A DNA stretch of 64,000 nucleotides from the NCBI RefSeq assembly GCF_014284155.1, contig NZ_JACOFZ010000001.1:558001-622000 (forward strand), read 5' to 3'. Source of the DNA: Affinundibacterium nitidum (lineage in GTDB: Bacteria > Pseudomonadota > Gammaproteobacteria > Burkholderiales > Burkholderiaceae_D). The position numbers and the translations under genes were made by a program. The notes under the pieces are model-generated. The model did no database searches. It was not told the origin of the DNA and saw only the letters and a list, made by a program, of their open reading frames with translations. Shown piece by piece: positions 4,140-42,597 of this stretch; positions within the stretch are counted from its first letter, which is position 1; every line of letters begins with the position of its first letter.

Positions 4140-4144
4140 AAATC

Positions 4145-6394: not shown

Positions 6395-6408
6395 TGGCGG
6401 AGACGGTG
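6395..6408. repeat. Left attachment site (14-bp tRNA-Ser 3' end copy)
   Basis: TGGCGGAGACGGTG is the reverse complement of the tRNA-Ser 3' end including CCA. The same 14 bp recurs at 42584-42597 in the same orientation, and flanking bases differ on both sides. This fits the crossover region of a tRNA-targeting tyrosine integrase. Confidence 0.8.
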
Positions 6409-6527
6409 TCTGCTTGAAATCATTCCAACAGAATCCAATAAATATAAAAAACTTCTTTAACTTCAACAAGTTAAATTAGTTAGAGTCCAAATCATTCCAA
6501 TACAAGCTATCAAAACCCACACAAAAA

Positions 6528-6548
6528 TGGCATACTACCTGGCATACT
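6528..6548. repeat. Paired integrase arm-type sites, left end
   Basis: Two direct copies of TGGCATACT start 12 bp apart, between the left attachment site and the integrase gene. The same pair with the same 12-bp period (TGGCATACC) lies inside the right end. Their place and repetition suggest arm sites for the integrase N-terminal domain or its directionality factor. This is inferred from layout. Confidence 0.6.
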
Positions 6549-6582
6549 GAACGCAACAACACTATATTTGAGTGACATACAA

Positions 6583-7779
6583 ATGGCTATACTCACAGAC
6601 GCCAAAGCGCGCTCTATTACTCTCGAATCAGGAGTTATTGCCCATGGAGGAGTGACTGGATTAACGTTACACCCATCCAACACAAAAGGGTCAGGAAAAT
6701 GGGTCTTGCGATACGTAAGTCCTGTTACTCAGAAACGTCGAAATGCAGGACTGGGGAGCTATCCCGAAGTAAGCATTTCCAGAGCCGCTAAAGCCGCTCT
6801 AGAAATGCGGTCGCAAATCGAGCAAGGAATCGACCCCCTCACTGAAAAAGCAAAGATCACCAAAATACAGAAAACTCCTTCATTTGAAGATGCATCTAGA
6901 GCTCTTCATGCCGAGCTCCTCCCGAGCTGGAAGAATGAGAAACACGGACAACAATGGATTAACACGCTTGAACAATATGTGTTCCCCCAAATTGGAGAAA
7001 TGCTTCTCGATCAAATTCAGCCGAGACATATCGCCGATACACTTCGTCCAATTTGGTTAGAGATTCCTGAGACCGCCGGACGTGTGAAACAGCGCATTCA
7101 TGCCGTCATGGCGTGGGGCTGGGCCCATGAGTACTGTCCATCCAATCCGGTCGATGTGGTACAACACTTACTCCCTCCGCAGCCGAACAAATCTATTCGA
7201 ACGACGCACCAACCCGCGATGCATTGGGAGGAAATTCCTAACTTTATTAGAGAACATCTTAGAGAATTTGAACAGTATGATGTAACACGTCCTATGCTTG
7301 AATTTCTTATTCTGACTGCTGCCCGTTCCGGAGAAGTTAGAGGTATGACATGGTCCGAGGTAGATTTCGTAAAAAAAATCTGGACCGTTCCCGCAGAACG
7401 GATGAAAGCAAAGATACTACATCGAGTTCCACTTTCTGAACGGGGGCTAGAAATCCTAAAGTCGCAAGTTGGACTCCATAAAGAATTGGTATTTCCTTCT
7501 CCTCGAAAACAAGTTGAATTGTCCGATATGGTCCTTACTTCTTTTCTTCGAAGAACGAAAGCCAAGAGTGACACTCCAGGGCGACTCGCCACCGCTCATG
7601 GATTCAGGTCCAGTTTTCGGGATTGGTGTAGTGTGAAGGGATACGCGCGAGATCTAGCTGAACGATCGTTAGCACACACTATTCAGAATAGGGTTGAAGC
7701 CGCTTACCACAGAACAGATTTACTAGATCAAAGGCGCGTCCTAATGGACGCGTGGGAAGCTTTTTGTTGCTCGATTTAA
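6583..7779 (+). CDS. P4-type tyrosine integrase (DUF4102 arm-binding domain)
   Basis: This is a complete site-specific recombinase of about 398 residues. The N-terminal DUF4102 arm-binding domain includes GKWVLRYVSPVTQKRRNAGLGSYP and ISRAAKAALEMR. A SAM-like core-binding domain (about 85-190) follows, then the catalytic domain with Arg248 in TAARSGEVRG, His339 and Arg342 in HGFRSSFRDW, and nucleophile Tyr375 in EAAYHRTD. All key residues are present, so it should be active. The ATG at 6583 is preferred to an in-frame TTG at 6568 because family members begin near this point. It reads inward from the left attachment site. Usually such integrases lie next to the tRNA; here the tRNA is at the other end. 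Confidence 0.92.
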   Translation: MAILTDAKARSITLESGVIAHGGVTGLTLHPSNTKGSGKWVLRYVSPVTQKRRNAGLGSYPEVSISRAAKAALEMRSQIEQGIDPLTEKAKITKIQKTPSFEDASRALHAELLPSWKNEKHGQQWINTLEQYVFPQIGEMLLDQIQPRHIADTLRPIWLEIPETAGRVKQRIHAVMAWGWAHEYCPSNPVDVVQHLLPPQPNKSIRTTHQPAMHWEEIPNFIREHLREFEQYDVTRPMLEFLILTAARSGEVRGMTWSEVDFVKKIWTVPAERMKAKILHRVPLSERGLEILKSQVGLHKELVFPSPRKQVELSDMVLTSFLRRTKAKSDTPGRLATAHGFRSSFRDWCSVKGYARDLAERSLAHTIQNRVEAAYHRTDLLDQRRVLMDAWEAFCCSI

Positions 7780-7995
7780 TTTACGAAAAAAATTTCGAGC
7801 ACGATGAGTTCGATTCCCATCAGAAAAATCACAGGTTCGGACCTAATAGAGTCATGCTACCAGAAGTGTCGGGTTTTTCTATATGAATACCCTTTCACCA
7901 ACTCGATTTGACAATATGACCGCTAGTGTCACTTTGCTTCTTCGCGCGTTCTAAAAGCAACTTATTCAACAACCAGTCTCGGATCACCAAGCAAA

Positions 7996-8015
7996 AATAA
8001 AATCTCGGTTTATTC
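7996..8015. repeat. AATAAA...TTTATTC inverted element after HTH pseudogene
   Basis: A short A/T-rich inverted repeat lies 28 bp beyond the stop of the HTH pseudogene. A closely similar element, sharing the TGAATAAAC-GAG-TTTTATT pattern on the minus strand, follows the intact copy at 19602. It may be a shared weak terminator or part of a duplicated unit. Apart from it, I see no gene in 7780-8043. Confidence 0.4.
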
Positions 8016-8043
8016 ATCTGAGACTGCGCATTTGCCCTTTCAC

Positions 8044-8304
8044 TCAATATCGAGGTCGAAGATTCCCCATTCTTCTTCTCACTTCCGACACTTTCCAGCC
8101 GGTTTCCTCATGGATTCGTACTATCAACGTCGCACCGATCGGAAGGTGCCTGTGTCGAATTCTGCTCATCGTTTACGGTGTAACACCGAGCAAAACGCAA
8201 AGCGCTGCATCACTGGATATATCAAAGTGAGTACGAAGCGAATCTAAAAGTGGCGCCGGATCATACTGAAAATTTGAAGTGTCTGGTAACTGTAATAAAT
8301 TCAT
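8044..8304 (-). pseudogene. Broken copy of the 86-aa HTH-like protein
   Basis: Translating the minus strand from the ATG at 8304 gives an 86-codon frame with one in-frame TAA about halfway, in place of the second proline of the PP(A/V)(M/L)SKIRH motif of its paralogues. Both halves align without gaps to the proteins at 19602 and 26052: FQYDPAPLLDSLRTHF and DAALCVLLGV before the stop, MSRIRHRHLPIGATLIVRIH and EETGWKV after it. It lies 75 bp past the stop of the chemoreceptor at 8380, the same relative place as the other two copies. A single nonsense change suggests recent inactivation. A sequencing error or read-through cannot be excluded. Confidence 0.8.
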
Positions 8305-8379: not shown

Positions 8380-9975
8380 TTAATTAACCGTGATCATTCT
8401 ATTTATTTTGATTGGCTGCACAGCGCTCTCTTCCAACTTAAAGACAGCGATTGAGCTAACGAGTTGTTTAGCTTCATCAAGCAAAGAAGAAGCGGCCGCT
8501 GCCGCTTCTTCGACTAAGGCAGCGTTTTGTTGCGTCACCCCATCCATGTGAGTGATTGCCTCATTGGCTTGGCCTATACCTTGACTTTGTTCACGGCTCG
8601 CAGAAGAAATGTCAATCATGATTTCAGAAACGCGTTGAACACTATTGACGATCTCTTCCATAGTCACACCAGCTGCGTCCACTAACTTGGTACCAGAATC
8701 GACTTCTTCTACCGAAGCATCAATTAGGACTTTAATTTCTTTTGCAGCCGCTGCGGACCTTTGGGCTAAACTTCGAACTTCAGATGCAACAACAGCAAAT
8801 CCTCTACCTTGTTCTCCAGCTCTAGCGGCTTCAACCGCTGCATTCAATGCCAAAATATTGGTTTGAAAAGCAATCCCATCGATAACGGCAATAATGTCCA
8901 CAATCTTCTTCGACGAGTCGTTTATGGATCGCATGGTCGTCACGACTTCAGCCACCACAGCGCCACCTTTGCTCGCGACTTTCGAGGCTTCTAATACTAG
9001 ATTTTTCGCGGATTCTGCATTCTCTGCGTTTTGCTGCACAGTACCATGTAACTGTTCCATCGCTGCGGCAGTTTCCTCTAAAGAGCTCGCCTGTTCTTCT
9101 GTTCGGGAAGAGAGGTCTAGGTTGCCAGTTGCGATTTGATTCGCCCCCAATGCTATTACATCGCTGCCAGATCTGATTGTCCCGATAATGGAACGTAAAT
9201 TGTTTCGCATTAGCCTCACTGAATAGAGGATGCTATTGTCATCCTTGGGGTGAATGTCAATCCTCGAATTAAGATCGCCCTCCGCTATTCTTCGAGTAAC
9301 CTCATTGACATAGGTTGGCTCCCCCCCGATTTTTCGAATGACTAGTCGAGAGATGAAATGAGCTCCAATCAGACCAACGACTATGCTCAATCCCCCAGCT
9401 ATCCAAAGGAAGTAGATCAGGTTTCTAATCTGCTTCTCAACCTGAAGGTTAGATTCAACAACGATGGAGTCTTGCAGCACCGCCAAATCGTCGAGAGTAC
9501 CCCTCAACCTTAGTAACTTTACGCTTATTTCTTTATTTGCTAATGAATTTGCCTCATCGCGTTGACCACTCGAAACCAAAAGTACAACCTTTGAAAAGGT
9601 CTCTACATACTGCGTTCTCGCCTCGACAAATGAAGCGAGTAAATCGCGCCCTTTTTGTAAGTAAATTAGTTTCCGCAAAATCTCGATTTGATCTGTAATT
9701 AGCGTCTTATTCTTAGAAATATCTGCTTGAATTGCAGAAATTTGCTCCGGACTGTTTGCGATCAACAATTGATAAGTACTTGCGCCATTTGCAATTGTCG
9801 CAGCACGAATCTTTGCGACAGCATTGGCTTTTACCCAATCTTTTTGAATGATTCTCGAGTTCGTTTCCTGCAAGCTATATAGCTCAATTGAAGCGACAAT
9901 GATTGATACGATAAATAAAACTAGGATTGAACAAACACCGAAGAACAGCAAATTTTTTAATTTCATCATTTTCAT
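8380..9975 (-). CDS. Methyl-accepting chemotaxis protein with four-helix-bundle sensor
   Basis: The roughly 531-residue chemoreceptor has a first membrane helix near residues 8-31, a periplasmic helical sensor of about 150 residues (4HB-MCP type, with [10 protein letters not shown]), a second helix near 186-206, a HAMP domain ([19 protein letters not shown]) and a cytoplasmic signalling domain. The hairpin tip reads [20 protein letters not shown]. No CheR-docking pentapeptide ends the protein. I prefer the ATG at 9975, which has GGAAGG about 8 nt upstream; the ATG at 10002 lacks one. It would sense a ligand and control a CheA-CheW array, but no che genes are on the island. The HTH pseudogene follows it. 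Confidence 0.9.
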
Positions 9976-10302
9976 AATCAAGTACCTTCCAATGTTTTTC
10001 ATTCAGATTCAAACAGTTTTGCCTGCGATTCCAAATTGTCGACAGTTATCAATACGTAATGGTAATTTTCAGTATTTTCTTCAATCCATTTTTTTGCCGC
10101 CTTCAATTTCATTGGAGCGCCACATCAAAATCATAAATTAAAAGCACGTCAACCCAAGTCAAAGAACAGGAACCCTTCATTGAAGTCTTGTCGAGCACTT
10201 CGACGGATGCGGCAATTTCGAAGATTCAGGGCCGACGTTTATTCATTTCCACTGAATTCAAAGATACGAGTTTTACTCGAAATACGAAATTTAAGTATCC
10301 TG
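9976..10302. other. Intergenic region upstream of the 8380 chemoreceptor
   Basis: About 330 bp between the hybrid kinase stop and the chemoreceptor start. It holds the GGAAGG Shine-Dalgarno near 9983-9990 and A/T-rich sequence, but I see no convincing sigma-28 promoter, terminator or additional gene. Confidence 0.5.
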
Positions 10303-13300
10303 TCAGTCAACCCTATTAAGAATATTCAATGCATTTCCAAAATTTAGTTCTTCAATAGAACGTTCAAGGACTATAAATTCGTCCACTGGAAATTTAGTCC
10401 TTACAGAATCTTTGATTTGTTCGAAAAGTGTGCACGCCTCCATATTCGAGGACGTAAGCAATACTTTCAGCTTAGGTATCCCATCATTTTGGTCGAGCAG
10501 TGGCTGGTTGTTCGCAACAATCTCATTCTCGGCAATCCATTTTTTAGCCGCAAAGACAGTTAAACTCAAAACTTCGATTGCAGAATCAAAAAGGCCGGGA
10601 ATATGATCGAGCTCTTTTTTTACTATTGCATTTTCGAGGACCAAACTTATGTCTGCAAACTTCTTTGCACCTAAGGTCCCAATCGAACCTCGCATTTTAT
10701 GTAACTGTGCCGCAGCATCAAGAGTTTTCCCATTTTCCCAATCGAATTTTGTTTGTCGAAGTGTGCCTTCGCTTGAATTAGCTATATTGCGAATTAACTG
10801 CACCAAGATCTCTTTACTCTTAGCATTTGTCGCACTCAACGCTATTAATCGACTCACATCGAACACTTGATTTTCCAATGGAACTTCGGGCTGTAAACTT
10901 TGCTCGCGTTGATCAATTACTTGCTCCTTAGACCTTTGATGCATTTCTCTTTTTTTTGCGTCCGATAAATTTCTCGATATAGTCGAGAATAGCTGCTCAA
11001 TTTCAATCGGCTTCGCAACGAAATCGTTCATTCCAACTGAAAAACATGCTGCTTTTTCGGTTTCCATTACCCCAGCAGACATCGCGATAATTGGTAATTC
11101 CAGCTTCAGTTGATTCCGAATGAACTTCGTTGCGGTAAATCCATCCATGATGGGCATCTGTACATCCATCAACACAAGATCGATATGAACATCCTTTTGC
11201 AACTGATCGATGGCTTCCTGTCCGTGATTTGCAATACTTATGCGTGCACCGCTCTTTTCCAAAATCCCCTTTGCGACGATCTGATTGAGCAAGTTATCTT
11301 CGACAAGTAAGATGTTTAAGCCGTGAAGGCTAGGCTGGATATCGTGTCTGTTTAAGTTCGCAGACGCTCTGGAACTTCGACCTTCCTTTTGTAAAAGTAA
11401 AGATTGAACTGTATCGAAAATATCGGATGGAGTAGCGGGCTTTTGCATTACTGACGCAACGGCGTCGATATCTTTTTCTTGCATCAATTTAACTCTGCTG
11501 TAGGCGCCCACTAACAATACAAAATGAGATTCCATGTCGGCAAACTTGGTCTTAAGAGCCTTTGTCATCTCTATGCCGTTCATCAGTGGCATATCCCAGT
11601 CGACTAATATTAAGTTATAGCCAAGCTTCAAATTTTGCATTGACGACAAGCGTGCAACTGCTGCTTCGTAGCTATCAGCATCTTCTACCGACCAATTCCA
11701 GGAGCGTAGAGTTCTGCATAAATAGTCTCTACTTGTATCGTTATCATCGATCACCAAAATGCGAAGTTCTTGCATCGAGGTGTCTGCGAATTGTTGACTT
11801 TCAGGTGCAGCTATCTTTAAAGGAAGCACCACCTCAAATTTCGATCCCGCTCCAAATTGACTTTCAACTGAAAATTCGCCGGACATCATATCTACTAGTT
11901 GCTTTGAAATCGTGAGCCCTAGACCCGAGCCTCCAAAGCGACGTGTCGTCGAGCTGTCAGCTTGTGAAAAAGCATGAAACAAGTTGGATACTTGTTCAGG
12001 CGTCATCCCAATTCCCGTGTCAATCACGGAAAATCGAATTCTTGAAATGTCTTGGTCTCGCCCGATTTCTTCAATCAAAAGAGATACCTCGCCGTCTTCC
12101 GTAAACTTTATCGCGTTCCCGACTAAATTTACGAGAATTTGTTGGATTCTAAGCGAGTCACCAAACAAAAAATGCGGGACACTTGGATCTACACCGATCG
12201 CGAGTTCTAGAGGTTTGTCTCCACCGTATACCGACATGATTGATGCAACTGCGCCAACGACTTCGTTTAATTCAAACTTGATAGGAACTATTTCTAATTT
12301 TCCTGCCTCAATCTTCGAAAAATCGAGAATGTCATTCAAAATTGCGAGTAGAGATTTACCTGATGACTCAATCATCGTGAGATACTTATGTTGCTCATCA
12401 TTCAGTTTTGTTCCAGCCAAGAGATGTGCCATTCCCAACACAGCATTCATCGGCGTTCTTATTTCGTGACTCATATTTGCTACAAATTCACTTTTTGATC
12501 TGCTGGCGGATTCCGCTTTCGTCAATGCATTTTTCAGTGCTTCCGAGCTCTTCTTTTCCTCGCTAATATCTCGGGCGACCCCTAAGAATCCAGAAATTTC
12601 TTTCACTTCGTTATAGATGGCGGTCACAGTTAAATGGACAGGAAATTTTTTATTTGTTTTTGTAACATAAGTCCATTCTGCAGTTTCTGGTTCACCCTTT
12701 TTCGCTCGTCTAACCAATGCGTCTAAGGCATCGATGGTTTCACCAAACTCCCGTGATAAGATTTCTACACGCTCGTTTATTTCGCTTTCCACATGAAATT
12801 TTAGGAATGAGTGACGACTTACAAGCTCACCTGCCCTATAACCAAGTAACTTCTCCGCGCCAGCACTAAAGGAAGCGACCGTTCCTTCTCTGTCGGTAGT
12901 AATGATCGCGAACTCGCTTGCTGCATCGAACGTTTCCTGAAGCTGCTTGAGAGCTTTCTGCTGACCAAATTGTGCTTCTTTTAGAGGAGTAATATCACTA
13001 ACGAAGCCGTAAATACCGACCACTTTTCCATCGTGAATATCGGGGCGGTAAGAAAACAAAGCATGGCGCACATCACCATTCTGATCAACAATCGATCGTT
13101 CAAAGATCTCAATGTTTCCCTCTAAAACAGAGCGCAACGCATCAGAAATAGAAAGATACCTTTCCTCTCCAATAACTTCCCTTATATGTTTCCCATTCAT
13201 GCTCTCTGGGCTTTGCCCGAACCATTTTAGGTAAGCACTGTTCGCGAATTTGTTCTTTAATGAAGAGTCCCAATACGCGACCAGAGCAGGAATGTTATCG

Positions 13301-14634
13301 ATTGTGGTCTGCAAGAGATCTTTTGTAGTAGACAATTGATCTAGCGTTTGGCGCAGCAACAATTCGGATTTTTTTCTATGAGATATATCAGTATGCGTGC
13401 CAACAACTCGCAATGGTCGCCCTTCCACGTCTCGCTTTACGACTAAGCCGCGATCATGAATCCATAGCCAAGTTCCATCTTTGCATTTGAATCTGTGTTC
13501 GTCAGAGAAGTATGGAATCTCATCAGCGAAATGACGATTCACAACGAGCAAGAGTTTTTCTAAATCATCTGGATGAACTCGCGTCGACCACTCTTCAACG
13601 CTATCTCCAATTTCATCTTCGCGATAGCCAAGCATTTGCTTCCATCGCGCTGAATAACTTACGGTGTTCCCCAGAACGTCCCAATCCCAAACACCATCAC
13701 CCGCCCCCTCAATCGCAAATTTCCACTTTTCTTCACTATCAACAAGTGCGGCCATCGTTCTCTCTCGGAGCGTTATGTCCCGAATGATAGCGACATACGA
13801 GCTGCTACTAGAAATTTCTAACTCGCTTACAGTTAGTTCGATAGGGAACTTTTCATCTCTATTTCTCAAACCGATTGATTTCAACTCTAGTTTTACATTC
13901 GAAGGCCCATCGCGTGAAGATTCTAAGTTTTTTACCTTCGCTCTCAGTGTATTTGAAAGCTCTGGTATGAGTCGGTCGATACTAAAGCTAATCAACTCTT
14001 CTCCGTCGCATTTAAACATCTCTAAAGCAGCCGGATTTAAAGATTCGATAAATCCATTCTGATCAAACACGATGATTCCATCGAAAATGTTTTCCCAAAC
14101 CGAATGAAGTTTTGCTTCGTTCTCGTTATTTTTTAGTGTTAGCTGAGCCACTCTTGAATTCCCAAGAGATAGATCGACTAAGCATGCCAGTTCATGTAAT
14201 GTCTCGATATCCGAACTTGACATCGACCTCGGCTTATCATCAATGATGCATAAAGTACCAATCAAAAAACCGTTAAAGCTGTGGATCGGAACGCCGGCAT
14301 AAAATCGAATGTACGGGCTTGATGTCACTAAACGGTTTTCGCGGAACCTGTAATCAAGATGAGTGTCCTCTACGATAAAAATGCGATCTTCTAAAATCGC
14401 GTGCGAACAAAATGAGCTTTCTCTATCAGTTTCGTTCACATCTAGGCCTTGCTTAGATTTGAACCATTGACGGTCTGAGTCAACCAAGGACACAAGTGAA
14501 ATTTGTACCTTGAAGTGATGACGAGCGATTCTGGTAATACGATCGAACCTCTCATCGTGTGGCGTATCTAAAATATGCATACAGTAGAGCTCTTCCAACC
14601 GGAGAAGCTCATTCGAAGGCTTAGGTATTGGCAT
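10303..14634 (-). CDS. Hybrid sensor histidine kinase GAF-PAS(x4)-HisKA-HATPase-REC-REC-Hpt
   Basis: This is a cytoplasmic hybrid kinase of about 1443 residues without membrane helices. The order is an N-terminal GAF domain (20-165, starting after [11 protein letters not shown]), four PAS/PAC units (about 175-690), HisKA with [19 protein letters not shown] (His near 722), HATPase with [10 protein letters not shown] and [12 protein letters not shown], two receivers (about 955-1225; [10 protein letters not shown] and [11 protein letters not shown]) and a C-terminal Hpt with [13 protein letters not shown]. All phosphorelay residues look present. The ATG at 14634 has GGGAG 7 nt upstream. It starts 10 bp after the REC-GGDEF gene stop, so both are likely co-transcribed and the kinase may phosphorylate that receiver. 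Confidence 0.93.
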
Positions 14635-14644
14635 ACGCAACTCC

Positions 14645-15586
14645 CTATTCTACGCACGAGTGATTTACATACATTTTGAAGCGATCTCGCCCTTCTGTTT
14701 TTGCCTCATATAAGGCGCGATCAGCTTGCCTCGTAAACTCAATGGCACCCACATCTTTAGTTGGAATTCCAGAGCACGCGCCGACACTTATGGTGACTCT
14801 TTCTCGGTTGATTAGATTGTCTGAGCCAAACTCTAGCCCTCGCACGACACTACAGACTTGCTGGCAATATTTCTTCAAATCGGTATCAGCAACGTAAGGG
14901 AGAATTGCAATAAATTCCTCTCCGCCATAGCGAGCGAAAATCTCACCTGGCCTTCGGGTTACAGCATCGATCGCACTCACTACATTAATCAAGCATTTAT
15001 CTCCTTCAAGATGGCCGTATTTATCGTTGTAGTCCTTAAAATGATCGATATCCATGATGACCACCGATAAAGGAAGCTTCTGACGAAGATGTCGTCCATA
15101 TTCTTTCTCGAGTTGATGATCGAAGTACCGCCGGTTATACACACAAGTCAAAGGATCTTGATTTACCAATAACTCTAATGAAATCGCATTCTGACGTAAT
15201 GTGAGATGGGTACCAACACGCGCGGCAACTACAGGCGGATTCAAAGGCTTACTGATAAAATCTACAGCCCCGGCTTCTAACGCACGGACTTCCGCGTCCA
15301 TGCTTGTTTCACCTGTAACGAAAATTATTGGGATATCTTTTGTGATGACGTTACTCTTAAGGTTTTTACAGACTTCATAGCCATTCTGACCCGGCATATT
15401 TACATCTAACAGAACAAGCGTTGGCTGTTGCTTATTCGCGAATTCAATTCCACTTTTTCCGTCTAAAGCAAACACTACGTCTGCCATGCCAAGAACGATC
15501 TGCGATAGCATTTTTATCACTTCAGGACTATCATCAACTATCAGTATTAGTGGTCTTGAAGTCCGCGTATTACCATTGATCTTCAT
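14645..15586 (-). CDS. Response regulator diguanylate cyclase (REC-GGDEF)
   Basis: The roughly 313-residue product joins an N-terminal receiver (LILIVDDSPEVIKML, phospho-Asp in LVLLDVNMPGQNGYE, Lys in FISKPLNPP) to a GGDEF domain. The catalytic signature reads ARYGGEEFIAILPY, so synthesis of c-di-GMP from GTP is expected. The inhibitory site five residues before GGEEF reads RPGE where RxxD is usual, which may weaken product inhibition. The ATG at 15586 is preferred to a TTG at 15598. It lies between a single-domain response regulator and a hybrid kinase on the same strand, and the kinase start is only 10 bp away. Phosphorylation probably controls its activity. Confidence 0.92.
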   Translation of the reverse strand: MKINGNTRTSRPLILIVDDSPEVIKMLSQIVLGMADVVFALDGKSGIEFANKQQPTLVLLDVNMPGQNGYEVCKNLKSNVITKDIPIIFVTGETSMDAEVRALEAGAVDFISKPLNPPVVAARVGTHLTLRQNAISLELLVNQDPLTCVYNRRYFDHQLEKEYGRHLRQKLPLSVVIMDIDHFKDYNDKYGHLEGDKCLINVVSAIDAVTRRPGEIFARYGGEEFIAILPYVADTDLKKYCQQVCSVVRGLEFGSDNLINRERVTISVGACSGIPTKDVGAIEFTRQADRALYEAKTEGRDRFKMYVNHSCVE

Positions 15587-15652
15587 ACTTTTATACAAGA
15601 AACCTTATAAATGCGAAATACTAAATTGCTTGGGTTCGCTAGATTCAATTTC

Positions 15653-16018
15653 TCACTCATGTCTGAGAGAGCCAAATAGAATCTGGAGGCATTCGTCAAA
15701 TTGATTACTCTTATCGAAGAAACCTGATATCCCGAAGCTTCTGCACTCACGTTCAATCGCACTATCTGTATTGTTCGTGACAACAAGCACTTTACTTTCA
15801 ACTTTGAAGCATCTTATTCTACGGAGTACATTCAGCCCACTACCCGGTGAAAGCGAAAGATCTAGGATTACAAAATCAGGATTTAGTCGCCGTATCTCTT
15901 TGACCGCAAGATCTTCTTCCTCGCAAAGACAAACAACGCGAATTCTTGGTTCGTTCGATATGGCTCGAAGAATTTGATTTCTGACGAGTTCAGAGTCTTC
16001 AACGATCATCAAATTCAT
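15653..16018 (-). CDS. Single-domain response regulator
   Basis: The 121-residue product is a lone CheY-like receiver. It begins MNLMIVEDSELVRNQIL, carries the phospho-acceptor in FVILDLSLSPGSG, the conserved Thr in VLVVTNN, and ends soon after the fold; the usual Lys of the KP motif is in FFDKSNQ. A GAGGGAAG Shine-Dalgarno precedes the ATG. Without an output domain it would act by protein contact or as a phosphate shuttle. It lies 134 bp after the LuxR-type regulator and 66 bp before the REC-GGDEF gene, so it may relay between the two systems. Its partner is not shown by the sequence. Confidence 0.85.
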   Translation of the reverse strand: MNLMIVEDSELVRNQILRAISNEPRIRVVCLCEEEDLAVKEIRRLNPDFVILDLSLSPGSGLNVLRRIRCFKVESKVLVVTNNTDSAIERECRSFGISGFFDKSNQFDECLQILFGSLRHE

Positions 16019-16151
16019 GACTTCCCTCTGCTTAATGGCACTTAAGTATCGACCATAAGAATAGAGGACTCTAGTGGAGAAACTAGGAGAAATAAGGAAG
16101 GTTAAGCTGAAACAAATGTAGGGTTTCGCCTACAATTGTAAAACGTTTTGT

Positions 16152-16778
16152 TCAGTTCAATTTATGTTCTGTGCAATACTTGGCCAAATCCAAGTTACTT
16201 GTAAGTCCCATTTTTTCAAGAATTCTCATTCGGTAGGTGCTTATGGTTTTTGGCGAAAGACTCATGTCTTTTGCTATCTGAATGATTTTCGTACCGCTTG
16301 CAATTTGAAGCATCACTCGATACTCTTGCACCGCCAAAGTCTCATGCGGCAACTTTGCATTTCTGTCTATTAGAAGGTGCGTCATGTGTTCAGCCAAGGA
16401 TGTTGAGATATAGAGTTTTCCGGATATCACCTTTTGGATCGCGTCAATTAGCTCTTCGGTGGCGTTTTCTTTATTTAAATAACCTTTTGCCCCGATCCTT
16501 AAAATTTGAGTCGCGTAGGCACTCTCAGTATGTAAACTCACGACTAATATTCGAAGGTCTGGAGCCACTCGTTTCAAGCGTGAAACTGACTCAACGCCTT
16601 GTGTATCTTGTAAGTTTAAGTCTACTAAAGCGATATCCCAGTTATCACTTTTGATTTTTGGATACGCCTCGATTAGCGACGATGCCTCTCCAATTTTCGC
16701 ATCGGGCCATTTTTCCAGAATTAGATGTCTTAAACCGAAACGAAAAATAGGGTGATCTTCAAGAATTAATATTTTCAT
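16152..16778 (-). CDS. NarL/LuxR-family response regulator
   Basis: The roughly 208-residue product has a receiver (ILILEDHPIFRFGLRHLI, phospho-Asp in IALVDLNLQDTQG, Lys in GYLNKENATEE) and a C-terminal LuxR-type HTH (QIAKDMSLSPKTISTYRMRILEKM). It should bind DNA as a phosphorylated dimer. It follows the HisKA_3 sensor kinase by 26 bp, which marks the two as a cognate NarX-NarL-type pair. The ATG at 16778 starts at the receiver's first strand; an in-frame TTG at 16808 would overlap the kinase stop. Its targets are unknown. The genes just downstream on the same strand (receiver, REC-GGDEF, hybrid kinase) are candidates. Confidence 0.92.
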   Translation of the reverse strand: MKILILEDHPIFRFGLRHLILEKWPDAKIGEASSLIEAYPKIKSDNWDIALVDLNLQDTQGVESVSRLKRVAPDLRILVVSLHTESAYATQILRIGAKGYLNKENATEELIDAIQKVISGKLYISTSLAEHMTHLLIDRNAKLPHETLAVQEYRVMLQIASGTKIIQIAKDMSLSPKTISTYRMRILEKMGLTSNLDLAKYCTEHKLN

Positions 16779-16804
16779 TGAACACGCTTGTAAAAGTAGC
16801 TGAC

Positions 16805-32956: not shown

Positions 32957-33844
32957 ATGAAAAATATACCCTCATTACGCCATCTAGTGGGATTTGAAGC
33001 AGCAGCACGCTTAGGCAACTTCTCAAGAGCGGCGGAAGAATTGCATCTATCGCAGTCAGCGATAAGTCATCAAGTTCAACAATTGGAAGAGCAACTAGGC
33101 CAGCCTATGTTCCATCGCGTTGGGCGCGGCGTTGAATTGACTGTGGCAGGCGAGGTGCTCTTTCAAACCGTACAAAAATCACTCCACACTTTAAATCAAG
33201 GATTAAATCGAATAACGACATATCTTGACCCGGGCTTAATCGTAATTGTCGCTCCCGCCCCTTTTATCCAAGGTTGGTTGCAAGGCAAAATCAATGAGGC
33301 GCAAGAACAGGACCCATCGCTATTGCCCGTCTTATCAACGGATCAAACGGCAAGATTCATTGATGAAGTTGATGTGGATATTCATATCAGTGAATATCCT
33401 TTGAAGCATGCCAATGTGGAGGAGTGTCCACTGTTTCAGGATGAATGGATAGTCGTGGCAAACCCAAAATTGGCGAACAAAATCGATATGAATAATTTGA
33501 AAAACTTACGACTATTTTGTTTGGAGAAAAGCCTAGCTGATGACAGCATTAACAATCAATTACAAGAGCAGCTCAGCCCTTGCAAAAAAGCAGGGTTCTA
33601 CGATGATATCTGTTTACTCGTCAACGTCATTAAGCAGCAACAGGGTATCGCCTGTGTCCCTTATTCCGCCGTCGCACGCGATATTGAATTGGGCGCCCTA
33701 ACCCGCCTCCCCTTCTTCGCTAGTAGCCCAAGTCGCACATGGTGGATTTCGCGCATGGCCGGAGAAACGCGCTCGACGAAAGTCGTTGAACTATTTAACT
33801 ATTTGCTTAGAGATAGGGAGAGACTGGGAAATCTAGACAGATAA
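32957..33844 (+). CDS. LysR-family transcriptional regulator (GcvA-like)
   Basis: The 295-residue product has an N-terminal winged HTH (LRHLVGFEAAARLGNFSRAA, LSQSAISHQVQQLEEQLGQP) and a LysR substrate-binding domain that ends in RTWWISRMAGETRS. The first residues PSLRHLVGFEAAAR resemble the GcvA branch. It is divergently transcribed from the exported agmatine-deiminase-like gene, the usual layout for a LysR regulator and its target. The inducer might be the enzyme's substrate or product; that is inference. Confidence 0.88.
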   Translation: MKNIPSLRHLVGFEAAARLGNFSRAAEELHLSQSAISHQVQQLEEQLGQPMFHRVGRGVELTVAGEVLFQTVQKSLHTLNQGLNRITTYLDPGLIVIVAPAPFIQGWLQGKINEAQEQDPSLLPVLSTDQTARFIDEVDVDIHISEYPLKHANVEECPLFQDEWIVVANPKLANKIDMNNLKNLRLFCLEKSLADDSINNQLQEQLSPCKKAGFYDDICLLVNVIKQQQGIACVPYSAVARDIELGALTRLPFFASSPSRTWWISRMAGETRSTKVVELFNYLLRDRERLGNLDR

Positions 33845-34330: not shown

Positions 34331-34466
34331 TTCGCAACACTTCTATCGTTCATTTCTTAGACGATCTGTCTTTCTTTGCAGTCCCGCCCCCATTTACGAC
34401 ATTCAATTGCATTTTGCATTTGGATGCCGCTTTACACCTATTCATTACTTTAAAAAAGGAATCATC

Positions 34467-35426
34467 ATGGCACATCATGTTCACTCTATGGCGTACGTCA
34501 ACGAAGTACCTTGGCATGGTCTCGGCAATCAACTTACCAAAAAGCAGTCCATCGAAGTATGGGCACAGCAAGCAGGAATGGCATTTGACATCAAGGAGTC
34601 ACCTGTTCGCTTTATGACCGAGAGCGCTGGAAGCCTCGGCGCGATCATGTCGTTTCCAGAACAAAAAGTTTTATATCGCTCCGATACGAAAGCTGCTTTG
34701 TCTGTCGTCTCGAATCGATATCAAGTTGTGCAACCTCGTGAGATCTTAGAGTTCTATCGCGACTTAACAGAAATTTCTGGCTTTGAACTCGAAACCGCAG
34801 GCGTTCTAAAAGAAGGTCGCAAGGTTTGGGCACTAGCCAAGACCAATCATTCAACAGAATTGAAAGGCAAAGACACGGTAAATGGCTACCTATTGTTAGC
34901 GACCGCATGCGATGGGACACTAGCAACTACAGCGCAATTTACGAGCGTCAGAGTATGTTGCCACAATACGCTCGCTGTTGCGCTAAACGGCAGCAACAAC
35001 GCGATCAAAGTGCCACATAACACGACTTTTGATGCACAAACAGTTAAGCGTCAATTAGGAATTTCGGTAACGTCTTGGGATGAATTTATGTACAGGATGA
35101 AAATGCTTTCAGAGCGAAAACTGAAATCAATTGAAGTCTCTCGATTCCTACTTAACGTCTTCACAGATTCTAATTCAGCGTCAACGGGACTCTCGAATGA
35201 ACGTGCAATTAAGAAGGTAGAAGAGCTTTTCAATGGACAAGGGAAAGGCTCAGAACTAGCTTCGTCGAAAAACTCAAGTTGGGGGATACTCAATGCGGTG
35301 ACCCAATACGTTGATCATGAACGTCGTGCAAAGTCGATAGACCATCGCTTAGACTCGGCTTGGTTCGGAAATGGAGCCTCGATAAAGCAAAAAGCGATGG
35401 ATCAAGCCATATTAACAATTAATTAA
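34467..35426 (+). CDS. DUF932 domain protein (phage/plasmid-related)
   Basis: The ATG at 34467, with AAAAAAGGA upstream, gives 319 residues starting MAHHVHSMAYVNEVPWHG, the typical opening of the phage/plasmid-like DUF932 family. Other marks are YRSDTKAALSVVSNRYQVVQ and GRKVWALAKTN. The family occurs on plasmids, phages and islands next to YqaJ nucleases; its biochemical role is not known. Here it heads a three-gene block (DUF932, YqaJ, Gp3-like factor) separated by hairpins. The block looks like an early recombination or replication module taken from a phage or plasmid. Confidence 0.85.
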   Translation: MAHHVHSMAYVNEVPWHGLGNQLTKKQSIEVWAQQAGMAFDIKESPVRFMTESAGSLGAIMSFPEQKVLYRSDTKAALSVVSNRYQVVQPREILEFYRDLTEISGFELETAGVLKEGRKVWALAKTNHSTELKGKDTVNGYLLLATACDGTLATTAQFTSVRVCCHNTLAVALNGSNNAIKVPHNTTFDAQTVKRQLGISVTSWDEFMYRMKMLSERKLKSIEVSRFLLNVFTDSNSASTGLSNERAIKKVEELFNGQGKGSELASSKNSSWGILNAVTQYVDHERRAKSIDHRLDSAWFGNGASIKQKAMDQAILTIN

Positions 35427-35565: not shown

Positions 35566-36576
35566 ATGATGCACATAGCTAAGAAAACAGAGCCATCAAA
35601 ATCAAAACGTCCAGCACTTCGCCTTGTAAAAACTCAAGACTTAAGTCGTGACGAATGGTTAGAAGTCAGAAAACGTGGAATTGGTAGCAGCGATGCTGGC
35701 ACCGCTGTCGGCCTCAATCCTTATCAATCACCTTTAGAATTATGGATGAACAAAACGGGTCGTGATGGCGATATGTCTAAGAGTGATCCTAATGACGAAA
35801 CAAGCCCGACGTACTGGGGGAGCTTACTAGAACCCATCGTCGCAGCGCACTACACCAAGCGTACAGGCAATCGTGTTCGCAAGATCAACGCTGTCTTACA
35901 GCATCCTAATCCAGACTATGCTTGGATGTTAGCGAACATAGATCGCGAAGTCGTTGGCGCGAATGATGTGCAAATCCTTGAATGCAAGACCGCTGGTGAG
36001 TTTGGTGCACGCCTGTGGAGAGATGGTGTACCGGATTACGTCGTTTGTCAGGTTCAGCATCAACTTGCTGTCACTGGTAAATCTGCTGCTGATGTTTGTG
36101 TGCTTATTTGTGGTCAAGAAATTCGCATTTACCGCATACAGCGGGACGACGAATTGATTGCACGATTAATCGAGTTGGAACGTCAGTTTTGGCGCTACGT
36201 CGAAACCGATACACCACCACCTGCTGATGGTTCTGAATCGGCAGATCGCGCTCTACGCTACCTTTATCCAAAAGACGCTGGCAACACGATCAATTTTTCT
36301 GACGATACTGAAATGTCTGCCACGTTCGCTGACTTGGTCAACTTACGTGCAGACATTTCCAATCGTGAAGAGTTGGAATCACTGTTGAAACAAAAGATTC
36401 AAGAGAAGATGGGGGACGCGAGCGTCGCGATTTTTGAATCGGGAAAAGTAAGTTTCAAGCGATCAAAAGACAGCCATGGCATCGACATGAACGCATTACT
36501 TCAAGACCAGCCCGACCTTGCCGATCGCTATCCATTGGTTAAACCTGGCAGTCGACGATTCTTAGTTTCCACCTAA
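35566..36576 (+). CDS. YqaJ-family viral recombinase / phage-type endonuclease
   Basis: The 336-residue product has the lambda-exonuclease-like PD-(D/E)XK fold. It opens with RDEWLEVRKRGIGSSDAGTA, then has YWGSLLEPIVAAHYTKRTG, MLANIDREV, the catalytic ILECKTAGEFG and QVQHQLAVTGKSAADV. These are the acidic and lysine active-site elements of YqaJ enzymes, which resect DNA for single-strand annealing. The C-terminal 100 residues are helical. Two ATGs in tandem can serve as start. No annealing protein is seen beside it; the downstream Gp3-like gene takes that position. Confidence 0.9.
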   Translation: MMHIAKKTEPSKSKRPALRLVKTQDLSRDEWLEVRKRGIGSSDAGTAVGLNPYQSPLELWMNKTGRDGDMSKSDPNDETSPTYWGSLLEPIVAAHYTKRTGNRVRKINAVLQHPNPDYAWMLANIDREVVGANDVQILECKTAGEFGARLWRDGVPDYVVCQVQHQLAVTGKSAADVCVLICGQEIRIYRIQRDDELIARLIELERQFWRYVETDTPPPADGSESADRALRYLYPKDAGNTINFSDDTEMSATFADLVNLRADISNREELESLLKQKIQEKMGDASVAIFESGKVSFKRSKDSHGIDMNALLQDQPDLADRYPLVKPGSRRFLVST

Positions 36577-36645: not shown

Positions 36646-37587
36646 ATGATACGAGGACTCGCGATTACCCCTCCAACTTTAGGACGTATTTCCATTGGTA
36701 GCATTGTCGAAAAAAATGGCAAACGCCTGCCTGTCAAAGAAGATTACTTCACCATCACATCCAATGTGCAAAACAAGGACGGTTGGATCAAACATCCATT
36801 GAACGACGAATTAATCAAGTCAGCAGGGCAAGACAAGCTCCGTTCGATTCCGGTTCGCTTACTCTTTAGTGATCCAGATCTCAATCTACGTGCGGAGTAC
36901 AGTATGTTTGATCGACAAACTGGACGACCGCTATGCGTAGGCAATGGCGAGACTTGTCGGCGCTATACAGAGACTGGCATCCAAAGCCTACCTTGTCCCT
37001 CACCGGATCTCTGTGAATTAGCCAAGGGTGGACGCTGCAAACCGTTTGGTCGGCTGAACGTTCAAATTGGAGACGACGATACATTGGGCACTTTCATTTT
37101 TCGGACGACAGGGTTTAACAGCATTCGCACATTGACCGCTCGTCTCAATTATCTTCGAGCGGTGTCAGGCGGCCTTCTGGCTTGTCTCCCGCTGCAATTG
37201 AAACTAAGAGGTAAAAGCACAACGATGAGCCATCGCAGCACGATTTACTTCGTCGATCTCACGACACGTGATGGAATGAGTTTGGAGGCATCTATCGCTG
37301 CAGCCAAGGATCTTGACAAGGCACGAAAGGAAGCTGGCTTTGATCAATTAGCATTGGATCGCGCGGCGCTCGATGGTTTTGCGAATGGGGCGTTTGAAGA
37401 AGATACTGACGAAGTGATGGCGATTACCGAGGAGTTTTATTCTGAAGAAGAGCATAACACTCCACATCAAGCGATGATCGTCAGTAATGCAAAGTCGACG
37501 GCATCGACAAAACCGAGCGTTAAAGAACAGTTGATGACAAAGGCTTCCTTGCTATCCTCAAAAGCGACTCCACTTAGCGCCGCCTAA
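36646..37587 (+). CDS. Gp3-like recombination directionality factor / metal-binding phage-plasmid protein
   Basis: The 313-residue product begins MIRGLAITPPTLGRISIGSI, like the phage and ICE proteins labelled hydrolase or metal-binding protein and the Gp3-like directionality family. A cysteine-rich middle (GETCRRY, LPCPSPDLCELAKGGRCKPFG) could bind a metal. RTTGFNSIRTLTARLNYLRA and the SGGLLACLPLQLKLRGK segment are family-typical. The tail is acidic. In serine-integrase phages Gp3 drives excision; this island has a tyrosine integrase, so here the protein may serve another recombination role with YqaJ. Its stop overlaps the convergent XRE gene by 4 bp. Confidence 0.7.
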   Translation: MIRGLAITPPTLGRISIGSIVEKNGKRLPVKEDYFTITSNVQNKDGWIKHPLNDELIKSAGQDKLRSIPVRLLFSDPDLNLRAEYSMFDRQTGRPLCVGNGETCRRYTETGIQSLPCPSPDLCELAKGGRCKPFGRLNVQIGDDDTLGTFIFRTTGFNSIRTLTARLNYLRAVSGGLLACLPLQLKLRGKSTTMSHRSTIYFVDLTTRDGMSLEASIAAAKDLDKARKEAGFDQLALDRAALDGFANGAFEEDTDEVMAITEEFYSEEEHNTPHQAMIVSNAKSTASTKPSVKEQLMTKASLLSSKATPLSAA

Positions 37588-39231: not shown

Positions 39232-40344
39232 CTAACACAATGAATTAGTCTGCGCCAATCGTGGCCTACCTCGCTTCACACCGAATGTTTCAGGAGCACA
39301 GCTCTTCCGAATCATTTTTCGTGCTGGTGAATCTTTTAGCCGAATTGTCTGCCTTTCTTTGCACACGTAATGAACGACTAATCCAATAAGGTTATTTATC
39401 ATAAGCTCGTCTGAAGCACAGATTAAGCCAATTCCACAAATTCCCTTAGCTTTATATTCATCGATTTTTGCATTAACGTTCCAATAATCCCCTTTGCCCT
39501 GAGTAATGTGCTGCTTCCAATACTCTCCAATCAATTTAGCGTAGTGCACATGATAAAGTCCATTACGAATTGAGCCATTGAAGAAAAAGACCGAATGAAT
39601 ATGCACACCTCGATCCAAACCGTATTCGACTCTGAAGATTGATCCAAGCAAATCATCAAAAATACTGTTGTGACGCATATTGGCCACGAGACGATCTAAA
39701 TCATCCAGCGCGTCAGAGCCATCAACCAGGTCTTTTGTCGCGTTGTTGTAATACAAGTCAACTCGCAAAACAATGATACGGCTATGTACGTAAAATAGAT
39801 CATCGACAAATTTAGTAAACGATTCTCGACGATACTCTTGCAACTTCCAAGCGTTAACCAATTTGCTGCGAAACTTGGGACTGCGACAGATTTCATCAAT
39901 AGCATTTACAAATTGTACAAAGGTATCAAAGCTTTGTACGTCATCTAAGTCTTTAAATTTACCAAGCACCGCATACCGCTTACCATCAGCTCCCTCCTGG
40001 ATTAAACTTTGTTTTAAGCATGCACTAATAAAGATTTCAATCGAAATAGAATAGACATATTTTGTCGGTAATAAACAAGATGCTTTAATCATCGAATGAA
40101 TAGCAAAATAGTACTTAGAGATTTGTGCATTTCCTGTTCTCGTGGTTGAAGATAAATTTAAGGATGCCACCGCTTGTTTCTGACTCCTAACGTAATAAAT
40201 AAAATCTTCGACATCGCGCATAGGCCTTGCATCGCCTTTTTCTTTTGCTAGAAGTGCATCAATTGTTTTCCCTCGGTGATCGTCATTTTGAAATGCCTTA
40301 GTTGCTCGATGACCTAGGAATTTTGAATCTAAAAAGATAGCCAT
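39232..40344 (-). CDS. Inovirus Gp2 / YagK-YfjJ family HUH protein
   Basis: The 370-residue product carries the YagK/YfjJ C-terminal domain (about 200-350): IIVLRVDLYYN, FRVEYGLDRGVHIHSVFFFN with the HxH pair of HUH enzymes, AKLIGEYWKQHITQGKGDYW and GIGLICASDEL. These proteins resemble rolling-circle initiators and are found in inoviruses, satellites and integrative islands. A catalytic Tyr downstream is plausible (NLIGLVVHYVCKER) but not certain. The N-terminal 190 residues are helical. Together with AlpA and the neighbouring integrase-like gene it looks like the replication part of a small integrative element. Confidence 0.82.
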   Translation of the reverse strand: MAIFLDSKFLGHRATKAFQNDDHRGKTIDALLAKEKGDARPMRDVEDFIYYVRSQKQAVASLNLSSTTRTGNAQISKYYFAIHSMIKASCLLPTKYVYSISIEIFISACLKQSLIQEGADGKRYAVLGKFKDLDDVQSFDTFVQFVNAIDEICRSPKFRSKLVNAWKLQEYRRESFTKFVDDLFYVHSRIIVLRVDLYYNNATKDLVDGSDALDDLDRLVANMRHNSIFDDLLGSIFRVEYGLDRGVHIHSVFFFNGSIRNGLYHVHYAKLIGEYWKQHITQGKGDYWNVNAKIDEYKAKGICGIGLICASDELMINNLIGLVVHYVCKERQTIRLKDSPARKMIRKSCAPETFGVKRGRPRLAQTNSLC

Positions 40345-40780: not shown

Positions 40781-41011
40781 TTACTGAGCACGGCTCACTT
40801 CGATTTTGTGTTCGATCCAAGCAATGACTTCCGATGCAATCCAAGCAACACTTCCTTTTTCGAACGATGATAAAGAGATCGGCTTCGGGAAATTTGGGTC
40901 ATAGTGTTTTGAATCAGGATTGAGTCGGTTGTAAATACTACTTCTCTTCAAGCCAGTTATTTCTTCGACTTGTGCGCGGCGCAGTAATTTCAGTGGGATA
41001 GATTGGCGCAT
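40781..41011 (-). CDS. AlpA-family regulator/excisionase
   Basis: The 76-residue product has the AlpA/MerR-like winged HTH: LRRAQVEEITGLKRSSIYNR, then FPKPISLSSFEKGSVAWIAS and EVIAWIEHKIE. AlpA proteins activate excision genes of P4-like islands and often serve as directionality factors. It lies between the Gp2/YagK gene and the integrase-like gene, a common order in small integrative elements. Start is an ATG. Confidence 0.88.
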   Translation of the reverse strand: MRQSIPLKLLRRAQVEEITGLKRSSIYNRLNPDSKHYDPNFPKPISLSSFEKGSVAWIASEVIAWIEHKIEVSRAQ

Positions 41012-41407
41012 TTATTCACTCCTTCAGTCAGTAGCAAGATTTCAAAATGACAAATGAAAAATTTGTCCACATCATAGGAGTACTGAGTATTTTTTTACGG
41101 GCACTCGTAGCTCGTAAAGGTTGGAGGGTGCTTATGCTTGTATTCAATTGCCACAAAGAGCACATCAAGACAAAATAATATTACAAATTAAAGAGAGACA
41201 TAATCTCCCAATTTAGGTAAATTAGTTAAAATACTTAAAGTTTTTGTCTATGATGAGCCCCAGAGATATGCAACCATCAATGCAGGGTAATTTGACTATT
41301 TTCTGCGGGTAATTTTATAAATATCTCACGATCTGTTTTGTGTTTTTCTTGGGTATTTTTTGTGTTTTCATCTCAGAAAATATTATCAATTATCAATACT
41401 TAAAATC
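41012..41407. other. Intergenic region between AlpA and integrase-like genes
   Basis: Nearly 400 bp of A/T-rich divergent promoter region. It should hold promoters for both flanking genes. I find no further ORF with a ribosome-binding site, no clear repeats and no terminator. Confidence 0.45.
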
Positions 41408-42388
41408 ATGAATAAAGTATCACTCCAAAGCACACACGCCAAAAAAAATCGTCGGCAAACGATCGTGCCGATAAATTCCGAAGACGAATTCAAAGACGCA
41501 ATTAAGAAAGGAACTGGCAAAATTAATTTGGGAAATTGCCTTTTCATCATCCTAAACTCTAATAGCGCCGGATCTTTTCGGTATCGACTAAGTTTTAACG
41601 GAAAAGACACAACGCATATACTTGGAAAGTTTCCTCAGATGAGTTTTACTGAGGCAAGGAAGAAAGCCGATGAAATGAATAACCAAAAGAGGCTTGCTGC
41701 TGAACAAACAAAAGCAAAGCGTTTTGAGGAGAACCTAAGGACGAGAAAAAGAATAGGAACGCAACGCAGTATCCCAACATTCAACAACTTGGTCGAAATT
41801 GCGATGCTTTACAAGGCGATACGCCATGACTACACATTAGATTATGAGATGCGGATCGTAACCTTTCTGGCCCTAACAACACCAATTTATGCCGACAGAA
41901 TAAGGGAGTTACGAAAAAAGGATTTTATAGAGCCTGGATGCCTTGTATTTTATCCAGACAATCTCTATTTGAATCCAACAGGCACTTTAGAACTAGATCG
42001 CGATCTATGTCACCAAATCCTGTCAATCCAAACCAACCGATCCGAATATCTTTTTGAAAAATCTCAAAGCTTGGGACCTGCAATTTTTATAGAAGAAATT
42101 GAAAAAATCATCAATAACGTTTGGCGAGCCAACACAATCAGACTGACGGATCTCAAGAAATTTTTTTATTTTATCTGCGATGAGAAAACAGGATTCAATG
42201 AATCATTCATTAAAGAATTCAAGGCAAATTATCGAATGCCGAATTGGGCGAGTAAATATGGTCGGCAAGTACATACCGCAATAAATTGGTTCGCGAATGA
42301 ATTGTTGCTCGCTGAAGGCGCCTTTAAAGATCCATACATATCAAAAGCAAATGAATCACTACCAACTTCGCATCGAGAGTACTCTTAA
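41408..42388 (+). CDS. Degenerate integrase-like protein with DUF4102-type arm domain
   Basis: The ATG at 41408 gives about 326 residues. Residues 40-105 match the DUF4102 arm-binding domain (RYRLSFNGKDTTHILGKFPQ, MSFTEARKKADEM). The following part resembles a tyrosine recombinase only in places: LTTPIYADRIRELRKKDF could be box I with its Arg, but the HxxR box and a clear nucleophile Tyr are not evident. Length is short of the usual 390-430. It may be an inactivated integrase, or an accessory protein using the same arm sites as the intact integrase. It lies about 195 bp inside the right attachment site, where the original integrase of an island would sit. Confidence 0.65.
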   Translation: MNKVSLQSTHAKKNRRQTIVPINSEDEFKDAIKKGTGKINLGNCLFIILNSNSAGSFRYRLSFNGKDTTHILGKFPQMSFTEARKKADEMNNQKRLAAEQTKAKRFEENLRTRKRIGTQRSIPTFNNLVEIAMLYKAIRHDYTLDYEMRIVTFLALTTPIYADRIRELRKKDFIEPGCLVFYPDNLYLNPTGTLELDRDLCHQILSIQTNRSEYLFEKSQSLGPAIFIEEIEKIINNVWRANTIRLTDLKKFFYFICDEKTGFNESFIKEFKANYRMPNWASKYGRQVHTAINWFANELLLAEGAFKDPYISKANESLPTSHREYS

Positions 42389-42507
42389 AAATTACAAGAG
42401 CGTAAGAACAACCAGTGATAACTCCAATAATGCAGCTCGACAAGGAAGCACACTTCTTGTAGCAATTCAACACGTTCCAATTGCTTCCAATTCCAGCCAA
42501 GCACAAA

Positions 42508-42528
42508 TGGCATACCAGATGGCATACC
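42508..42528. repeat. Paired integrase arm-type sites, right end
   Basis: Two direct copies of TGGCATACC start 12 bp apart, 55 bp inside the right attachment site. They match the left pair in sequence, period and orientation, and both pairs follow TTCCAA-rich stretches. Confidence 0.6.
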
Positions 42529-42548
42529 GAAGGAAGCAGAAAAAGAAA

Positions 42549-42571
42549 AAGCCCTTTAAAATCAAGGGCTT
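42549..42571 (-). terminator. Terminator serving tRNA-Ser, supplied by the island
   Basis: AAGCCCTT pairs with AAGGGCTT around a 7-nt loop and is followed on the minus strand by TTTTCTTTTT. It lies 12 bp past the tRNA-Ser 3' end but inside the island boundary, so it replaces the host terminator now stranded at 6358. Confidence 0.78.
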
Positions 42572-42583
42572 AATCAGAATTAC

Positions 42584-42597
42584 TGGCGGAGACGGTG
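42584..42597. repeat. Right attachment site within tRNA-Ser 3' end
   Basis: These 14 bp are the CCA-terminal bases of tRNA-Ser(GCT) and repeat exactly at 6395-6408. The tRNA remains complete because the island carries this copy of the 3' end. Confidence 0.8.

Follow-up and report, generated by a model that had tools for sequence, protein, structure and literature searches.

A 36-kb island with sensory cargo at tRNA-Ser(GCT) of Affinundibacterium nitidum

Elements of the CP4 type combine an Arm-DNA-bind_3 tyrosine integrase, AlpA and a YagK/YfjJ-type protein, and they take the 3' end of a tRNA gene as their target. The 64,000-nucleotide stretch of the Affinundibacterium nitidum genome analysed in this paper (contig NZ_JACOFZ010000001.1, positions 558,001 to 622,000, here called the window) holds an island at tRNA-Ser(GCT), which an earlier note, written from the letters alone, had described as an integrative element with a large sensory cargo.

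Several described systems come close to parts of this island, and are quoted here from excerpts of their sources. In Vibrio alginolyticus, the island VPII lies in trmA and carries three diguanylate cyclases, and its loss lowered biofilm and raised motility (PMC10672970). VPI-1 of Vibrio cholerae encodes TcpI, a homologue of methyl-accepting chemotaxis proteins (MCPs), and AcfB (PMC7574455). NahY is a plasmid-borne chemoreceptor (cited in PMC6600141), and PBGI-2 has a receptor gene among mixed cargo (PMC9298801). In the elements called GInts, one operon encodes three integrases and a small protein, all of them essential (PMC5385486).

In this paper we delimit the island by comparison with relatives, set it beside sister islands in Undibacterium and consider how its cargo may fit the host. 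The explanation that we favour, with a probability of roughly 0.78, is a site-specifically integrated island of a family present in several Undibacterium species, the sensory middle of which would act as a plug-in. Coordinates are collected in Table 1, and genomes are cited by G number where they must be told apart.

Integration at tRNA-Ser(GCT) and the island family

Both borders of the island are copies of the 3' end of the target gene, tRNA-Ser(GCT), as expected of a tRNA island. The direct repeat, TGGCGGAGACGGTG, is an exact match of 14 bp, and the start-to-start distance of its two copies is 36,189 bp, which agrees with the 36.2 kb of the earlier note. For the comparison with relatives, lysC was searched in 60 genomes and matched in 58, and 30 lysC loci were examined with a 1.5-kb flank. 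A plain empty site, with kup within this flank of tRNA-Ser and a single copy of the repeat, was present at nine of the 30 loci; the copy is the identical 14-mer at six of them and the two-base variant TGGAGGAGATGGTG at three. In the nearest relative, G017, LysC is 100% identical and Kup 95% identical to those of the window, and there is no island. Window positions 5089-6408 and 42584-45523 match positions 1-1320 and 1307-4248 of the G017 locus by blastn, and the two segments overlap by 14 bp, exactly the repeat. The terminator-like hairpin of the window directly follows tRNA-Ser in close relatives, so that the order tRNA-Ser, terminator, kup, which had been predicted for genomes lacking the island, is the order found, and the possibility that no empty site exists anywhere is removed. 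Because relatives have empty sites with the repeat as the exact boundary, the 36,189 bp are an insertion at the 3' end of tRNA-Ser(GCT), and the island is correctly bounded. Empty sites and conserved ends together establish integration at the tRNA. Recombination of a circular form with the 3' end of this tRNA gene would have left the 14-bp repeat behind and restored the end of the tRNA.

Table 1. Position and strand of the features of the island and its borders in the window
Feature	Position	Strand	Basis
Terminator-like hairpin, native; adjoins tRNA in empty sites	6357-6384
Left 14-bp repeat (kup side)	6395-6408		Repeat comparison, empty-site blastn
Left pair of TGGCATAC sites, 12-bp spacing; probable arm-type sites	6528-6547	+
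Integrase, catalytic residues present	6568-7779	+
Chemoreceptor 1 (4HB), main host tip class	8380-10002	-
Hybrid histidine kinase, GAF/PAS sensors	10303-14640	-
Response regulator-GGDEF protein, GGEEF motif	14645-15598	-
Single-domain response regulator	15653-16018	-
LuxR-type response regulator	16152-16808	-
dCache/HisKA_3 histidine kinase	16805-19096	-
Chemoreceptor 2 with CZB domain, main host tip class	20016-22355	-
Stand-alone CZB protein	22464-22817	-
dCache-GGDEF protein, GGEEF and RxxD	22890-24599	-
Spermidine synthase-like protein	24876-25796	+
Chemoreceptor 3 (sCache), second tip class	26362-28752	-
DUF2325 protein	29576-30910	+
Agmatine deiminase-like protein (PAD_porph)	31649-32806	-
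LysR regulator	32957-33844	+
DUF932/TIGR03299 phage/plasmid-like protein	34407-35426	+
YqaJ/RecE-like exonuclease	35566-36576	+
Gp3-like (recombination directionality factor-like) protein	36646-37587	+
Gp2/YagK-like protein, weak match	39232-40344	-
AlpA-like regulator	40781-41011	-
Degenerate integrase; keeps the arm domain, lacks Arg-I and His-II	41360-42388	+
Right pair of TGGCATAC sites, 12-bp spacing	42508-42527	+
Right 14-bp repeat, 3' end of tRNA-Ser(GCT)	42584-42597
tRNA-Ser(GCT), target gene	42584-42675	-

A complete tyrosine integrase adjoins the kup-side border, and here too the earlier note was right: the frame is uninterrupted, with arm, central and catalytic Pfam domains and the residues R253, K280, H344, R347, H370 and Y380. 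The placement of the genes has to be corrected, as this working integrase lies at the kup end and AlpA, Gp2 and a degenerate integrase gene lie at the tRNA end. AlpA is present as claimed, with a match to a PHROG excisionase/regulator family (E-value, E, 1.5e-8). For Gp2/YagK the family assignment is tentative: the window protein matches PF11726 at E 0.0029, below the curated cut-off, and the aligned relatives match it weakly in five of five cases (best 1.2e-4). Among the 23 island open reading frames (ORFs) scanned, no relaxase, type IV secretion or other conjugation gene had a Pfam match, so the island is not classed as a conjugative element and would depend on a helper or another route for transfer. 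No capsid-hijacking or packaging gene was identified among ten proteins compared with PHROGs; matches to head, tail and lysis families were weak (E at least 1.3e-4) and fell on parts of the ORF at 33959 and of the YqaJ protein. Homologues of the Gp3-like protein were seen in 39 plasmid records, among them that of a 133-kb plasmid from Pseudomonas putida DOT-T1E.

The same ends recur in related islands. Homologues of the integrase with at least 69% identity occur in eight of 44 Undibacterium genomes (own included), and a Gp2-like gene is found at 1e-15 in eight of the 44, partly in different genomes. A whole island lies on one contig at the same tRNA-Ser in G061 (35,090 bp) and in U. flavidum, G024 (41,352 bp, start to start), and in G012 the island ends are on two separate contigs. 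Paired TGGCATAC sites, 12 bp apart, stand at both ends in the window island, G061, G024 and G012, which are four species, at 133-135 bp inside the left repeat and at 76 and 64 bp before the right one. G061 and G024 have the DUF932, YqaJ and Gp3-like genes in common with the window, the block being inverted in G061 relative to the window, and carry Gp2, AlpA and the integrase relative at the tRNA end. Identities to the window proteins in G061, G024 and G012 are 82, 78 and 69% for the integrase, 68, 63 and 61% for AlpA, 41, 35 and 38% for Gp2, and 24, 23 and 22% for the degenerate integrase. The cargo is different. The 12 proteins scanned in the G061 island include an RTX-repeat protein, ABC and HlyD secretion proteins, two ORC-CDC6-like proteins, a PRTase-CE protein and an N6-methylase, and the 21 scanned in U. 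flavidum include the G, E and F proteins of a type II secretion system, a secretin, N-methylation motifs and RHS repeats. In the three linked islands, therefore, the backbone (integrase, DUF932-YqaJ-Gp3, Gp2-AlpA-degenerate integrase) recurs and the middle is exchanged. Since sister islands combine the same backbone with other cargo, this is an island family with exchangeable middles and not a sensory class.

Some details of these loci were seen in passing. Two adjacent Gp2-like genes are present in G061 (L063, 14747-16946) and in U. flavidum (L065, 6031-8284), and HxH occurs only in the copy nearer to AlpA. In U. flavidum, other genes amounting to about 7 kb separate kup from the terminator (L113, 2866-9814), and the integrase homologue on contig C116 of G007, a metagenome-assembled genome, has one internal stop (L114). 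In G031 a different insert, a 17-kb type I secretion/RTX operon, separates tRNA-Ser from kup (L165, 1-17430; C1 from 435800); the terminator hairpin occurs on either side of it, neither a relative of this integrase nor a second repeat is present, and its ABC and HlyD proteins share 92% and 90% identity with their counterparts in the G061 island.

Sensory cargo and the networks of the host

The cargo of chemoreceptors, c-di-GMP enzymes and kinases described in the earlier note is there: three MCPs, two histidine kinases, two GGDEF proteins, three response regulators (one of which is the response regulator-GGDEF protein) and one CZB protein, together 17,021 of 36,189 bp, or 47% of the island. 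An element devoted mainly to sensing is a fair description of this island and not of its class, and the view that such cargo is unusual has to be set against precedents. Both GGDEF enzymes have a GGEEF motif, with an RxxD site in the dCache protein and RPGE in the response regulator-GGDEF protein. The spacing of the genes suggests two operons. One would run from the dCache kinase through the LuxR-type regulator, the single-domain response regulator and the response regulator-GGDEF protein to the hybrid kinase (gaps of -4, 133, 54 and 4 bp), and the other from the dCache-GGDEF protein through the CZB protein to the CZB-receptor (gaps of 72 and 108 bp). Through both, signals would reach the transcription of the host and its c-di-GMP pool. 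The 23 ORFs scanned included no core che gene, again as the earlier note had it, and the island would thus depend on the host for signalling output.

The genome of the host has 25 MCPsignal matches (three in the island), 42 GGDEF matches (two in the island) and four matches to the CheA dimerisation domain. The receptor tip is the part that contacts CheA and CheW. A 31-residue tip identical to that of chemoreceptors 1 and 2 is present in 14 of 22 other host receptor loci, and chemoreceptor 3 has a second tip class, which is present in two of the 22 host receptors; one of these, at C54:90152-90577, lies about 3.5 kb from a CheA match at C54:94069. As the tip contacts CheA and CheW, the island is most simply read as a source of receptors for two host arrays, its three receptors entering arrays that already exist. 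The earlier proposal that the island retunes the chemotaxis and c-di-GMP networks of the host is in keeping with the tip matches and the four CheA matches and, as far as sequence can tell, is probable in outline.

Other observations concern single genes of the cargo. By eye, the first likely zinc ligand is His in the CZB domain of the neighbouring receptor, and this position is Tyr in the stand-alone CZB protein. The spermidine synthase-like and agmatine deiminase-like genes beside the sensory genes hint at a polyamine theme. A defence island was considered and rejected: among ten window proteins compared in PADLOC the strongest match, mad2 at 1.1e-10, falls on part of the spermidine synthase-like protein, and the others are at 2.9e-6 or weaker; all were taken as shared domains.

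A degenerate integrase at the tRNA end

The second integrase gene of the island has a Pfam match to the arm domain only. Five homologues (G000, G061, G024, G012 and G062), read over their full length, form one group, and in pairwise searches they match each other with E no higher than 1.8e-8, in some cases in the arm region alone. All five lack Arg-I and His-II in three alignments, and the protein does not qualify as an active recombinase. Arg-II is kept in two of the five, and the tyrosine depends on the alignment. The core-binding region has 29-35 residues in two of the three alignments and 66-97 in the third. Alignment with real integrases by hhalign covers the arm domain only, and a single-sequence structure model (mean predicted local distance difference test score, pLDDT, 47.5) is confident for the arm domain only.

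The gene is at the tRNA end in G061 and G024 and beside AlpA and Gp2 in G012, and it is also present in G062; in the four of five genomes with visible linkage it lies near a tRNA. Within the genus 10 of 44 genomes match it at 1e-3, and the matches in G031, G020, G030, G028 and G017 are partial, in frames of 407-510 amino acids. Within the order 105 of 399 genomes match at 1e-6, and the matches listed outside its own genome cover about model positions 22-160 only, that is, the arm region. In G062 (L184, 3540-7074) the homologue lies about 2.4 kb from tRNA-Ser(TGA), and two TGGCATAC sites with the same 12-bp spacing come after this tRNA. Because this end and its paired sites are near tRNA-Ser(TGA), the island family may use another serine tRNA.

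Two simple explanations of the gene were considered. Two tandem elements, suggested by a second integrase gene, were rejected for the lack of an inner repeat copy and the same two-ended layout in G061 and G024. A randomly decaying relic appears unlikely in view of five open, full-length homologues in five species. The degenerate integrase has diverged to 22-24% identity between islands with integrases that are 69-82% identical and paired arm sites that are unchanged. A tentative idea, which we regard as more doubtful than probable, is that a working integrase is paired with an integrase-derived regulator encoded near the tRNA. The degenerate protein could occupy the arm sites beside the tRNA and, by way of its variable remainder, keep the island in place, permit its excision in concert with AlpA or bar rival members of the family from the tRNA that they share. 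Given middles that are freely exchanged, with a ready-made sensory set as one of them, the island would then serve as a platform for swapping cargo and bring its own brake on the integrase. No description of such an integrase relative was found in the open-licence literature of PubMed Central.

Alternative explanations and comparison with known systems

One alternative, which we consider unlikely, is that the locus is composite, an older chromosomal sensory cluster having been taken into an integrative element at this tRNA or come to be flanked by one. The RTX operon of G031 speaks for it, as the comparison with the G061 island indicates that the same cargo can sit at this site in an island and a non-island state. 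The insertion in the window is, however, exact between the repeats, and a DNA search with 9001-28900 found no syntenic copy of the sensory block among the best six candidates scored per genome in 44 Undibacterium genomes, so that relatives keeping the block without integrase or repeats, which would have told against the earlier note, did not appear. The best non-self matches listed in that search are single genes, chemoreceptor 3 at 67% (G061) and chemoreceptor 2 at 68-71% (seven genomes), and the others are short and in conserved domains; the negative for the genus appears strong, if not exhaustive. In the protein searches of family and class genomes the best few candidates per genome were scored (two or three for the kinase). 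Among these candidates the dCache kinase had no other match, either at E of 1e-80 or below in the 393 genomes of the family or at 1e-60 in the 274 of the class, and it had none at 1e-30 in the plasmid collection. The cyclase sensor was matched at 1e-20 in 174 of the 393 family genomes, own included, with a best non-self identity of about 35% among the candidates scored. At the thresholds used, the family, class and plasmid searches identified no donor of the sensory genes.

That the island is an immobile relic with drifting sensory genes is somewhat less likely again. The degenerate state of the second integrase gene, the lack of a conjugation gene among the scanned ORFs and the internal stop in the G007 homologue would suit a relic, but the window integrase has an unbroken frame and the residues needed for catalysis, neither the repeats nor the arm pairs are damaged, and G017, with an identical LysC, is without the island. 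A chance 14-bp repeat in ordinary chromosome is barely credible: a 14-mer overlapping the repeat has three window matches at up to two mismatches where 0.35 are expected, the third at 46737 outside the island, which makes such matches weak evidence by themselves, but the empty sites have the repeat as their exact boundary and the same ends occur in three other species.

The reading as a site-specifically integrated island with a plug-in sensory middle has to carry several points that weigh against it. The plain empty site was seen at nine of 30 loci only; the remaining 21 comprise the locus of the window itself, the G024 island and 19 with neither kup nor this island in the short flank. Two of the 19 were followed further: kup lies 17 kb away behind the RTX insert in G031, and no kup was found in 14.5 kb in G013. 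Composition gives no support to island status, as the G+C content is 43.3% in the island and 44.6% in the flanks, with a more AT-rich stretch at 40-42 kb of the window. The island is 0.83% of the genome and would by chance hold 0.21 MCPsignal and 0.35 GGDEF matches (P 0.0011 and 0.047), an enrichment that describes rather than proves, because the island was first chosen for its sensory genes. The cargo may be of mixed origin, since chemoreceptors 2 and 3 have single-gene relatives in the genus. A shared tip is no proof of array membership, and membership, c-di-GMP output and ligands, like the circular form, are inferred.

If the favoured explanation is true, whole sets of receptors and c-di-GMP enzymes, beyond single genes, travel as island cargo, and conserved receptor tips let such cargo work in a new host, so that a behaviour would be acquired in a single event. 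The idea can be tested directly in four species, for which island ends match, cargo differs and empty sites are known. How islands on one tRNA control or exclude each other is a question posed by the degenerate integrase, which is conserved and yet changes fast. In the open-licence literature of PubMed Central we found no description of this Undibacterium island family, nor of an island that has three receptors, two cyclases and two kinases but lacks che genes.

The nearest known elements are the cryptic elements of the CP4-57/CP4-6 type and other P4-integrase tRNA islands, which are alike in integrase type, AlpA and tRNA 3' target and, by a weak match, in the YagK/YfjJ-type protein. Compared with them, the window island has a tRNA-distal integrase, a DUF932-YqaJ-Gp3 module, a degenerate integrase at the tRNA end and sensory cargo. 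VPII resembles it in having island cargo that acts on c-di-GMP, an action predicted for the window island, and differs in its integration site and in that the excerpted account mentions no chemoreceptor set (PMC10672970). VPI-1, in the excerpt cited, is alike in its island-borne receptor homologue and differs as an island of pilus, colonisation and regulatory genes (PMC7574455). NahY appears in its citing source as another mobile receptor for host chemotaxis, but a single one on a catabolic plasmid (cited in PMC6600141). GInts, as excerpted, also have more than one integrase-like gene, diverse cargo and flanking repeats, whereas the window island has its working integrase at one end and a degenerate relative at the other (PMC5385486). 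The island is a known kind of element with unusual cargo and one odd backbone gene.

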